DNA of 64,000 nt from Alphaproteobacteria bacterium (GTDB lineage Bacteria > Pseudomonadota > Alphaproteobacteria > Micavibrionales > Micavibrionaceae). Every line of letters starts with the position of its first letter. The stretch's first letter is position 1. Made by a program: the position numbers and the translations under genes. The notes under the pieces were generated by a model, which was not told the origin of the DNA, searched no databases, and saw only the letters and a list, made by a program, of their open reading frames with translations. The stretch covers positions 1 through 64,000 of the forward strand of contig JAJRSA010000028.1 in NCBI GenBank assembly GCA_024279035.1, written 5' to 3'. This document shows, piece by piece, positions 19,340-23,086 of this stretch.

Positions 19340-19975
19340 TTAGAGTGCGGAGAAAACCTTTTCAAGGTTTTCCTTGAAGGCATTATCAAATTCTTCAACT
19401 GAAACACACACACCCAGAGCTTCAAAAGAGGTCACGCCGTACTCGGAAATCCCACACGGCACAATCCCAGAGAAATGAGATAAATCAGGGTTCAAATTCA
19501 CCGATACACCATGATAGGCCACCCAGTGACGGACACGCACGCCAATGGCAGCGATCTTTCGTTCTTTCTGATCAGGACACACAACCCAGATTCCAATGCG
19601 CCCTTCTCGACGTTCTCCCTGAATTTTAAAATGGGAGAGAGAGAGAAGGATAGACTCCTCTAACATCCATATATATTTTTTGATATCAGGATCTTGAAAT
19701 CTATTTCTAAGATTACATATAAAATAGTATATGCGCTGTCCTACACCATGGTAGGTATATTGCCCCCCTCGCCCTGTTTCAAAAACAGGGAACTGTGGAG
19801 ATTTTAAATCTTCAGGCTTTGCACTTGTTCCTGCTGTGTAGAGAGAGGGATGTTCTAGTGCCCAGAGGAGATCTTTTTTGCCATCTTCATGAATAACCCG
19901 CACGCGTTCCTCCATAAAAGACACAGCTTCAAGATAAGGGATAGGATTAGAACTCTCTTTATATTCAAAAAACAT
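19340..19975 (-). CDS. lipB: Octanoyl-[acyl-carrier-protein] transferase LipB
   Basis: The frame is open up to 20104, but the conserved part begins at MFFEYKESSNPIPYLEAV, giving about 211 residues, the usual LipB length. Earlier ATGs would also run into the divergent gene that starts at 20040. The protein moves the octanoyl group from ACP to lipoate-dependent enzymes. Visible motifs are the substrate-binding GRGGQYTYHGVGQRIYY and the catalytic PCGISEYGVTS with its Cys, preceded by the Lys-containing KIAAIGVRVRHW. No clear Shine-Dalgarno was found for any candidate start. Confidence 0.88.
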   Translation of the reverse strand: MFFEYKESSNPIPYLEAVSFMEERVRVIHEDGKKDLLWALEHPSLYTAGTSAKPEDLKSPQFPVFETGRGGQYTYHGVGQRIYYFICNLRNRFQDPDIKKYIWMLEESILLSLSHFKIQGERREGRIGIWVVCPDQKERKIAAIGVRVRHWVAYHGVSVNLNPDLSHFSGIVPCGISEYGVTSFEALGVCVSVEEFDNAFKENLEKVFSAL

Positions 19976-20039
19976 ATATTGACATATTCTATAAAATGGT
20001 AAATAATACCCCTTCATAACAACATAAGGATTTTTTACA

Positions 20040-20557
20040 ATGTCAGAGTTTGATAAAGTAGCACAAGACCCAAGACAAACACTCTCCATTGCTTCTGACC
20101 TCAATGGGACAATAGACCTAACAGACCCAAAAATATCCTTAAGACATTGTCTTTGTTAGCATTAAAAGGCGACACAATTGGGGTGTATTCCAAAGGAGGG
20201 GACAATTATATTGCATCACTTTTAATAGAAAGTACCTTAAACACTCTTTTTTTTGATGAACCCTCTCTCATACATTTGAATACTCAAAAAACTAAACAAC
20301 TCACTCACATTTCTTTTAAGGCTGGCCTCCAAGACACCTATTTCGACATCGTCTTTGATGATGAGCCTGTTGATTGGTGTCATTATGGGATTCATATCCA
20401 AGCAGGAACTCTTGTCTGTGATACTATTATAGAAGAATTCAATAAAAACCCAGACCAAGATTTTTTAGCTCTTGTAGAACGCCACGCAGACCAAGAAGGC
20501 ATTTGCTTTGGAATTCATAATCATACTTCTGTAGAAAACACCCTCACTCCCAAATAA
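20040..20557 (+). CDS. Uncharacterised gene read in two frames (-1 frameshift at a C_CCA_AAA heptamer)
   Basis: An ATG at 20040, with AAGGA about nine bases upstream, opens a frame of 39 codons beginning MSEFDKVAQDPRQTL and ending at TAG near 20157. A second frame, one base back, runs to 20557 but has only a poor TTG start at 20147. Joining them at 20126-20132 (zero-frame C CCA AAA) gives a 172-residue protein reading DPKNILKTLSLLALKGD through the junction, which looks like a natural helix. AAGAC/GTCTT forms a small stem eight bases downstream. It may be programmed frameshifting, a recent mutation or a sequencing error. I do not recognise the family. An earlier start would collide with lipB. 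Confidence 0.6.
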
Positions 20558-20627
20558 AACGGATTTCCCTCTCTGTCCTCTTGCAATCACATTATATTTC
20601 AGTAAAGTCTTTTTCACGATCTAGCGT

Positions 20628-20716
20628 GCGGCCGTGGCGGAATTGGTAGACGCGCAGCGTTGAGGTCGCTGTGGACTTATTTGTCCGTGGAAGTTCGAGT
20701 CTTCTCGGCCGCACCA
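20628..20716 (+). tRNA. tRNA-Leu (anticodon GAG)
   Basis: An 89-base class II tRNA. Acceptor strands GCGGCCG and CGGCCGC, discriminator A and an encoded CCA. The anticodon stem-loop CAGCG TTGAGGT CGCTG places GAG at 20662-20664. The long variable arm (TGGACTTATTTGTCCG) and T-arm GTTCGAGTC are typical of tRNA-Leu. It reads CTC/CTT leucine codons and lies just before maeB. Confidence 0.96.
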
Positions 20717-20749: not shown

Positions 20750-23086
20750 ATGCCCCCCACAAAACAAGAAAAAAAAGAAGCTAATTTGAAGGAAGAGGCT
20801 CTTCGTTATCATATCTACCCTACCCCTGGTAAAATATCAATTACACCTACAAAAGCTCTGACCACACAACGAGATCTCTCTTTGGCCTATTCACCAGGTG
20901 TGGCTGCGCCCTGTGAAGAGATTGCAAAAGACCCTCTGAAAGCCCTTGATTATACGTCTCGCGGAAATCTAGTGGCTGTCATTACAAATGGAACGGCTGT
21001 TCTCGGATTAGGTGCCATTGGAGCACTTGCCGCCAAGCCCGTCATGGAAGGCAAAGCCTGTCTCTTTAAAAAATTTGCAGGAATTGATTCCGTTGATCTT
21101 GAAGTCAATGAGACAGATATTGATAAATTTGTCGACATTATTGCGCCTCTTGAGCCAAGTTTTGGAGGCATTAATCTTGAAGACATCAAAGCCCCTGAGT
21201 GCTTTGAGATTGAAAGAAAACTCAAAGAGCGTATGAATATTCCCGTCTTCCACGATGACCAACATGGGACAGCGATTATCGTGGGGGCAGCTTTCTTGAA
21301 TTGGATGGAACTCACAGGACGAGATATAAGAAAGACAAGACTTGTTGCCTCTGGTGCAGGAGCTGCCTCCATTGCCTGCCTCCGTCTTCTTGTTGGAGCA
21401 GGTCTTCCCAAGAAAAATATTATAGTCACGGATCGCGATGGAGTCATCTATAAAGGACGGAATAAGGGCATGGATCCTTATAAAGAAGAATTTGCCACTG
21501 ACTCATCCCACAGAACATTGGCAGACGCCCTCAAAAAAGCGCATGTCTTTTTAGGATTGTCTGGGCCGGGCGTTCTCAACACAAAGCTTGTCTCAACAAT
21601 GTCCAAAGCGCCTCTGATTATGGCCATGGCCAACCCAACGCCTGAAATTATGCCTGAAGATGCTCGTAAGGGACAGCCAAAAGCTGTGATCTGCACAGGG
21701 CGCTCCGACTATCCCAATCAAGTTAATAATGTGCTTTGCTTTCCTTTTATTTTCCGAGGGGCGCTCGATGTCGGCGCGACAACCATCAATGAAGAAATGA
21801 AACTCGCCTGCGTGAAAGCCATTGCGGCGCTTGCCCGTAAAGAGGCCACGGCTGAAGTTGCGACTATTTACAGTGGAGAAGAACTTGAATTTGGAGAAAA
21901 CTATCTGATCCCCAAACCTTTTGACCCACGCCTTATTGTGGATGTCTCTATGGCTGCCGCCCAAGCTGCTATGGACACAGGCGTTGCAACGCGACCGATT
22001 AAAGATATGGAGGCCTATAAAGAAAAACTCAAACAATTTTTCTACAAATCAGATCTCTTGATGAAGCCTGTGTTTGATAAAGCCAAAGCCGATCCAAAGC
22101 GTATTGTCTTTTGTGAAGGCGAAGAAGAGAAAATATTGCGCGCTGTTCAAGTGGTTGTGGATGAAGGCTTAGCCCAACCAATTGTTATTGGACGTCGTAA
22201 AGTTGTTGCGACACGGATCGAACGTCTAGGATTACGTATGGAGATCGGTACAGATTTTGAGCTTGTCGATCCTGAAAATGATTCTCGCTACAAAGATTAC
22301 TGGCAAACTTATCACAAAATCATGGCGCGCCGTGGCATTACACCCTCTCATGCCAAAGCCACTGTGCGTACGAATACAACGGTCATTGGCGCGCTCTTTG
22401 TCCATAAAGGGGAGGCGGATGGCCTCATCACAGGCACAGTCGGACGTCATCATAAACATGTCCAACGAATTGTCGATGTCATCGGTTTAAAACCAGACAT
22501 TGAAAACCCTGCTGCTTTGATTGCGGTGATGCATGATAATGGCACGATTTTTCTCTCGGACACTCATATCAATAAAAATCCAAGCCGTGCACAATTGGTT
22601 GAAACCACAATGTTGGGCGCTGATTTGATTCGTCATTTTGGGATTACGCCAAAAGTAGCCATGCTCTCCCATTCAAACTTTGGAACCTATAACGATGAAG
22701 AAAGCTGTAAAATGCGCCTCGCCGCTCAAGATATCAAACGCCGAGATCCTAAGCTTGAAATTGACGGAGAAATGCAAGGAGACACCGCCCTCTCAGAGGC
22801 TATCAGAAACGAAATCATGCCCGATTCAACCCTCACAGGAGAAGCCAACCTCCTCATCATGCCCAATGTGGAGGCCGCTAATATTTCCTACAACCTCATC
22901 AAAATGCTTACAAATGGAGTCGTCATTGGCCCACTTCTCCTCGGGGTTGCCCACCCCGCCAACGTCCTTACGCCTGCCTCAACAGTACGAGGTATTGTGA
23001 ATGTCACCGCCTTAACAACCGTAGAAGCACAAATTGCTGAGAAAGAGAATAAAGGGAAAGTGGTGCGGAAGAAGAAAAGAACGTGA
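20750..23086 (+). CDS. maeB: NADP-dependent malic enzyme with C-terminal phosphotransacetylase-like domain
   Basis: 778 residues from the ATG at 20750, just after the tRNA; the frame is open back into the tRNA, but this ATG precedes the conserved EEALRYHIYPTPGKI. Residues to about 430 form the malic enzyme (SLAYSPGVAAPC, FHDDQHGTAIIVGAAFLNW, GAGAASIACLRLL nucleotide site). The rest is a PTA-like domain (FCEGEEEKILRAVQVV, ADGLITGTVGR), which in such fusions is catalytically altered and thought to act in acetyl-CoA regulation. It decarboxylates malate to pyruvate, supplying NADPH. Confidence 0.95.
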   Translation: MPPTKQEKKEANLKEEALRYHIYPTPGKISITPTKALTTQRDLSLAYSPGVAAPCEEIAKDPLKALDYTSRGNLVAVITNGTAVLGLGAIGALAAKPVMEGKACLFKKFAGIDSVDLEVNETDIDKFVDIIAPLEPSFGGINLEDIKAPECFEIERKLKERMNIPVFHDDQHGTAIIVGAAFLNWMELTGRDIRKTRLVASGAGAASIACLRLLVGAGLPKKNIIVTDRDGVIYKGRNKGMDPYKEEFATDSSHRTLADALKKAHVFLGLSGPGVLNTKLVSTMSKAPLIMAMANPTPEIMPEDARKGQPKAVICTGRSDYPNQVNNVLCFPFIFRGALDVGATTINEEMKLACVKAIAALARKEATAEVATIYSGEELEFGENYLIPKPFDPRLIVDVSMAAAQAAMDTGVATRPIKDMEAYKEKLKQFFYKSDLLMKPVFDKAKADPKRIVFCEGEEEKILRAVQVVVDEGLAQPIVIGRRKVVATRIERLGLRMEIGTDFELVDPENDSRYKDYWQTYHKIMARRGITPSHAKATVRTNTTVIGALFVHKGEADGLITGTVGRHHKHVQRIVDVIGLKPDIENPAALIAVMHDNGTIFLSDTHINKNPSRAQLVETTMLGADLIRHFGITPKVAMLSHSNFGTYNDEESCKMRLAAQDIKRRDPKLEIDGEMQGDTALSEAIRNEIMPDSTLTGEANLLIMPNVEAANISYNLIKMLTNGVVIGPLLLGVAHPANVLTPASTVRGIVNVTALTTVEAQIAEKENKGKVVRKKKRT

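Follow-up and report, generated by a model that had tools for sequence, protein, structure and literature searches.

The question raised by positions 20040 to 20557 of the window (the whole stretch of 64,000 bases that was analysed, part of contig C34 of a 1.82-Mb genome in 40 contigs) is whether two overlapping reading frames on the forward strand are one gene joined by programmed -1 ribosomal frameshifting, one gene with a damaged frame, or two genes. The preliminary description had reported two ORFs in a -1 relation, the first with a ribosome-binding site and the second without, an exact in-phase slippery heptamer, and an AAGAC/GTCTT stem beginning eight bases past it; each of these elements is indeed present, as listed here together with the neighbouring features.

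19340-19975, - strand: lipB-like gene (presumably lipB), left border of the slot; start position estimated by eye from ORFs of the congeners
19979-20007, + strand: promoter-like site TTGACA-17-AATAAT, 11/12 consensus matches
20025-20030, + strand: Shine-Dalgarno-like TAAGGA, nine bases 5' of ATG 20040
20040-20159, + strand: zero-frame ORF, ATG 20040, stop TAG 20157-20159, 39 aa
20099-20159, + strand: overlap in which both frames are open and inside which the frame change must fall
20126-20132, + strand: CCCAAAA heptamer, in phase as C CCA AAA and part of CCC-A5; codon scores place the best frame switch here
20141-20153, + strand: AAGAC/GTCTT five-pair stem, AAGACATTGTCTT, -1.7 kcal/mol, outside the minimum-energy fold
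20147-20557, + strand: -1-frame ORF, 136 aa from TTG 20147, no Shine-Dalgarno core
20628-20716, + strand: tRNA-Leu (gag), right border of the slot
20750-23086, + strand: malic enzyme/phosphotransacetylase-like gene, syntenic anchor; we take it to be maeB, a name given from sequence

Reading frames and codon usage

The -1 frame has a stop at 20096-20098, is open from 20099 and ends with TAA at 20555-20557, and no ATG, GTG or TTG occurs in it between 20099 and 20147. Regarding translation starts, neither TTG 20147 nor TTG 20153 is preceded by a Shine-Dalgarno core, and GTG 20183 has AAGG 13 bases upstream. The promoter-like site ahead of the first ORF is not significant by number, two such sites having been found where shuffled sequences give 2.2. 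Inside the -1 ORF there is a near-perfect Shine-Dalgarno sequence, AAAGGAGG, at 20192-20199 (Lys-Gly-Gly codons), after which the first ATG, GTG or TTG in this frame is TTG 20276.

Codon scores were trained on 41 ORFs (15,514 codons) and, as a larger set, on 130 ORFs that are 200 aa or longer (50,363 codons). The zero-frame ORF has a coding appearance in its first 29 codons and lacks it in the last ten: 20040-20126 averages +0.14 bit/codon, a value that is reached by 1.0% of wrong-frame windows and not exceeded by 26% of true gene windows, and the tail at 20127-20156 falls to -0.56 bit/codon. From 20129 onward the -1 frame holds +0.12 to +0.13 bit/codon, and its codons at 20129-20146, ahead of any usual start codon, contribute +2.4 bits. 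Coding signal is present in two frames, with one break between them. With the 130-ORF set the best frame switch lies at 20126-20132 (38.3-39.0 bits), all switch points from 20099 to 20138 being within about 3 bits of it. The -1 ORF by itself carries 29.7 bits of coding signal and the whole zero-frame ORF just 1.9 bits, because its tail is anti-coding.

Given that the codon scores favour a switch at 20126-20132, the pair of ORFs probably makes up a single gene of 172 codons, which is the likeliest reading of 20040-20557 but not a proven one, and the frame switch itself is fairly above chance. The fused ORF gains 9.8 bits over the separate ORFs; across 213 kb, however, 36 of the 5,811 segment pairs that overlap pass the same fusion filter, ordinary neighbouring genes included, so that this stricter pair test does not single out the locus. 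It had taken the place of an ab initio scan for frameshifts whose penalty was lax; that scan placed breaks in 142 of 258 predicted genes and was set aside for telling too little. GC content at the locus is low (37.6%, against a mean of 44.1% for the 130 ORFs). Of the earlier proposal of one gene split by a -1 shift, the codon scores thus uphold a single gene joining at or near 20126-20132; the part that made the shift a programmed one fared worse, for the reasons that follow.

The heptamer and its surroundings

The 130 intact ORFs contain 267 in-phase heptamers of the form XXXYYYZ (Y being A or T), nine of which are CCCAAAA. The probability of at least one such heptamer in a 19-codon overlap is 0.096 when estimated from intact ORFs and 0.069 from shuffles of the overlap itself, 22% of which contain a run of at least five identical bases. 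Runs of at least five bases number 1,227, and those of exactly five 846, in these ORFs, which were selected as intact. The heptamer is at chance level, and intact ORFs of this genome tolerate it. Runs of this kind are where indels occur as well as where slippery sites lie, and the coincidence of heptamer and break therefore does not separate the two.

The motif belongs to a class that can shift the ribosome. In the part of the E. coli survey considered here (PMC4066793), C_CC.A_AA.A is one of 18 selected motifs whose frameshifting exceeds 0.10% with no stimulator present, and the V_VV.A_AA.R motifs rank with the most efficient ones when combined with a strong IS3 pseudoknot; frameshift-prone motifs without stimulators are given there as reaching 2.1 to 10 times a background of 0.055%. 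The minimum-energy fold pairs other bases than those of the AAGAC/GTCTT stem, and the sequence after the heptamer is only slightly more stable than its shuffles, with z values of -0.91 (50 bases), -1.29 (60 bases) and -1.12 (80 bases), and +0.14 for a stretch across the heptamer. The best structure starting 4-10 bases downstream is a two-tier one that begins 4 nt after the heptamer, with -10.6 kcal/mol, and an equally stable structure follows 83 of 244 control heptamers (those of the 267 in-phase heptamers of intact ORFs with enough sequence downstream). Its energy per base is matched by 54 of 175 controls, a further 40 without a structure having been dropped. Local contrast to the surrounding windows, measured per base as in PMC4066793, is 0.146 kcal/mol/nt and is reached by 13 of the 175; the lowest value among 20 IS3 elements is reported in the same source as 0.09 kcal/mol/nt, a threshold that 34 of the 175 controls pass as well. 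This contrast is the sole structural result favouring recoding, and it is a mild one. None of seven Shine-Dalgarno cores, an optional feature of such sites, was found in the 30 nt upstream of the heptamer. The proposal that stem and heptamer together make a programmed -1 shift is therefore not sustained, the stem being worth -1.7 kcal/mol and lying outside the fold, the heptamer being at chance level, and a Shine-Dalgarno core being absent upstream.

Genomic setting, relatives and predicted product

The maeB gene has its best named match in a Micavibrio metagenome assembly (71% identity), which makes a Micavibrio-like alphaproteobacterium the probable host. The order lipB, tRNA-Leu, maeB is kept in both congeners, whose lipB-tRNA spacers are 182 and 137 bases long and contain no ORF like this one. 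Among 30 maeB loci (L009-L038), lipB and tRNA-Leu are both within reach at 26; the spacer measures 45-198 bases in 19 of these and exceeds 350 bases in seven, this window included, where it is 558-1081 bases long and carries small ORFs on the + strand. At the six other long-spacer loci (L013, L014, L015, L027, L031 and L038) these ORFs are of 125-295 aa, and none resembles the gene in the window, the best blastp match having an E-value of 0.088 and being to a minus-strand ORF. Occupants in different genera differ from each other by eye, and the proteins of five of the six slots gave no Pfam match of weight. By eye, the ORFs of L013-L015, which belong to one genus, are alike. lipB and the tRNA-Leu-maeB pair diverge from the spacer at 20008-20628, a variable site that accommodates small accessory genes. 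A dispensable gene would be in keeping with this, and the site may be of interest to those studying how plastic the genomes of Micavibrio relatives are. Judged by eye, tRNA-Leu is preceded by similar sequence, of the form cttgcaat..ttatatttnagtaaagtc, both in G002 contig C203 (L040, about 2890-2950) and at 20580-20627 of the window; this is perhaps the conserved promoter of the tRNA and marks where the slot ends on the right.

Searches of the 136-aa product against Pfam, PHROGs, NCBIfam and PDB sequences returned nothing credible. Among 94 genomes of relatives two were matched, the window's own and G053 (E 0.0077), and the same two were matched among 142 genomes of the order; only the genome itself was matched in samples of 385 genomes from the class and 398 from the phylum (the window's own genome is part of every count, and the searches share some genomes). 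The G053 match was rejected, as it sits in a 204-aa ORF with HVTxA motifs, which we take to be a 2H phosphoesterase/LigT-like protein. Six peptide patterns run against the genome and viral contigs, an exact 26-base pattern run against viral contigs, and a search of phages and plasmids revealed no relative, nor was similarity to a mobile element or to dnaX found. The joined 172-aa protein gave nothing in PADLOC, NCBIfam or PDB, and in the order it matched 6 of 142 genomes at E up to 0.1, the five non-self matches (E 0.015-0.081) being taken as noise. The gene is absent from both congeners, genome-wide as well as at the syntenic place; this absence and the lack of any other relative in these searches are as expected of a dispensable gene.

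The joined product of 172 aa is acidic (pI 4.6) and has no strongly hydrophobic 19-residue stretch; AlphaFold predictions from single sequences had mean pLDDT values of 39.5 and 39.7. Its residues 27-83 match PilZN, the N-terminal domain of YcgR (PF07317), with an E-value of 0.031, and the hydrophobic spacing is alike by eye. The match is weak: it scores 14.6 bits against a Pfam cut-off of 23, and the locus product has neither the PilZ half nor RxxxR. By eye, neither RxxxR nor [DN]xSxxG, presumably the motifs of the PilZ domain, occurs in the 172 residues. A profile was also built from the first 125 residues of E. coli YcgR and of seven Burkholderiales relatives, two of the seven being identical there. 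The joined protein scores 7.4 bits with it and the next ORF of the genome 6.2 bits, and 7.4 bits was reached by none of 3,000 shuffles (2,087 scored) and none of the genome's 302 ORFs of at least 100 aa (192 scored). The -1 frame scores 6.4 bits from 20126, 8.0 from 20099 and 2.6 from 20147, and the zero-frame ORF -2.0 bits. The signal is almost wholly in the -1 frame and therefore does not bridge the junction. An hhalign comparison of the joined protein with the YcgR N-terminal profile gave a probability of 0.7% and an E-value of 0.037. In a PilZN scan of the genus one of three genomes was matched, at the window's own locus (E 0.07, 13.7 bits), and in its control three archaea were matched besides E. 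coli; in a scan of the class, 12 of 289 genomes had matches of 12.5-18.2 bits, none above the cut-off, and the window's locus was absent at E up to 0.1. These class matches place 14.6 bits within genome-scale noise. Chance Pfam matches of an unrelated kind were also obtained for two of the five slot proteins from other genera (E 0.084 and 0.094). The possible PilZN resemblance, seen in sequence profiles, is a weak and unproven lead only.

Explanations of the frame break

The probabilities worded here are judgements and not computed values. The locus would, in the preferred reading, be a small lineage-specific accessory gene of 172 codons whose frame was broken once, at or near CCC-A5, by a one-base change in length. 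This change may be a real and recent mutation, the protein then being truncated to 39 aa; alternatively, the gene may be intact and the assembled consensus wrong. We infer that the break is recent and, since the heptamer is at chance level and has no clear stimulator, probably an unprogrammed single-base indel; the earlier description had named a change in homopolymer length as the main alternative to programming, and such a change in the A run is here judged the more likely of the two. As for its origin, a real, recent mutation falls a little short of an even chance and a consensus error is rather unlikely. How common frame breaks are in conserved genes was gauged by comparing contigs C34 and C37 with 348 ORFs (each 100 aa or longer) taken from contig C11 of G001 and from 340 kb of G005: for 70 of these ORFs the best match had at least 40% identity, 68 covering at least 80% and two being partial, and none of the 70 was split between frames (48 intervals, 51 kb). 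The assembly is not riddled with indels, which argues against frequent consensus error and moves weight from consensus error to real mutation. Several findings tell against an indel of either origin. The break coincides with an in-phase heptamer whose motif class is proven; it is single, and codon bias is kept on both sides of it, so that there is no accumulated decay; 1,227 runs of at least five bases lie in ORFs that are intact, and a T8 run within the same gene has not broken its frame; the local contrast is reached by no more than 13 of 175 controls, and the fusion gain has counterparts elsewhere (36 of 5,811 pairs pass the filter). The T8 run, at 20247-20254 inside the -1 ORF, has an intact frame through it and is a longer slippage candidate than A5.

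That the locus instead comprises two independent ORFs, with a leader or short ORF in front and then a gene starting at TTG 20147, TTG 20153 or GTG 20183, perhaps with translational coupling at TAG 20157-20159, is unlikely. The two TTG codons just ahead of the upstream stop resemble the starts of coupled genes, the 3' ORF alone holds most of the coding signal (29.7 bits), and neighbouring gene pairs in the genome reach similar fusion gains, with 36 of 5,811 overlapping pairs passing the filter. The missing Shine-Dalgarno sequence is not decisive here, given that in 57 of 130 ORFs none of the possible starts within the first 60 codons is preceded by a core. Yet the upstream ORF amounts to 1.9 bits overall with an anti-coding tail, the -1 codons at 20129-20146 score +2.4 bits before any usual start, and some of the weak PilZN signal falls on these same codons (6.4 bits when the frame is taken from 20126, 2.6 bits from 20147). 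Programmed -1 frameshifting at C CCA AAA, which would yield a 172-aa trans-frame protein besides the 39-aa product, is improbable. An exact in-phase heptamer at the best switch point, of a class that functions in E. coli according to the part of PMC4066793 considered, the two-tier structure of -10.6 kcal/mol 4 nt past it with a contrast of 0.146 against 0.09 for the lowest IS3 element, and the lack of ATG, GTG or TTG in the -1 frame between 20099 and 20147 all suit it; but the heptamer is at chance level, the stability is matched by 83 of 244 controls, the energy per base by 54 of 175 and the 0.09 contrast by 34 of 175, the shuffle z is about -1, no Shine-Dalgarno core lies upstream, no mobile-element similarity was found, and motifs without stimulators give, in the same source, only 2.1 to 10 times the 0.055% background. 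The fuller version, a young species-specific gene of a Micavibrio-like bacterium that may encode a stand-alone PilZN-like protein through a -1 shift at C CCA AAA helped by a two-tier hairpin, is quite improbable. That the spacer of 620 bases holds chance open frames and no gene is very improbable: no homologue was found and GC is 37.6% against a mean of 44.1%, but the -1 ORF has 29.7 bits of codon signal and the congeners' spacers are just 182 and 137 bases. Least probable, and extremely so, is a rescue of the frame during transcription, with RNA polymerase slipping on A5 in a share of the transcripts. A homopolymer does lie at the junction; A5 is short, however, with 846 five-base runs in intact ORFs, and high-efficiency slippage in vivo is reported in PMC5009743 for runs of nine A or T.

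Regarding known systems, the locus is like the orphan 'singleton' fs-genes (Antonov et al., 2013, PMC3711429) in having an ab initio frame transition at a single site and no detected homologues, and as far as the part of that work considered here describes them there is no difference in principle, the locus adding an in-phase heptamer at the junction. With the bacterial -1 cassettes of dnaX and of IS3/IS911 orfA-orfB, as presented in part of PMC4066793, it shares ORFs overlapping in -1 and an in-phase X XXZ ZZN heptamer; it differs from them in having no clear stimulator, no upstream Shine-Dalgarno core, no orthologue found in the searches made and no similarity found to mobile elements or dnaX. 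Were the shift real, recoding would here be used by an orphan gene that is not mobile. The locus serves as a worked example of how little an in-phase heptamer says for recoding when it stands at a frame break, because indels, too, fall on homopolymer-rich heptamers.
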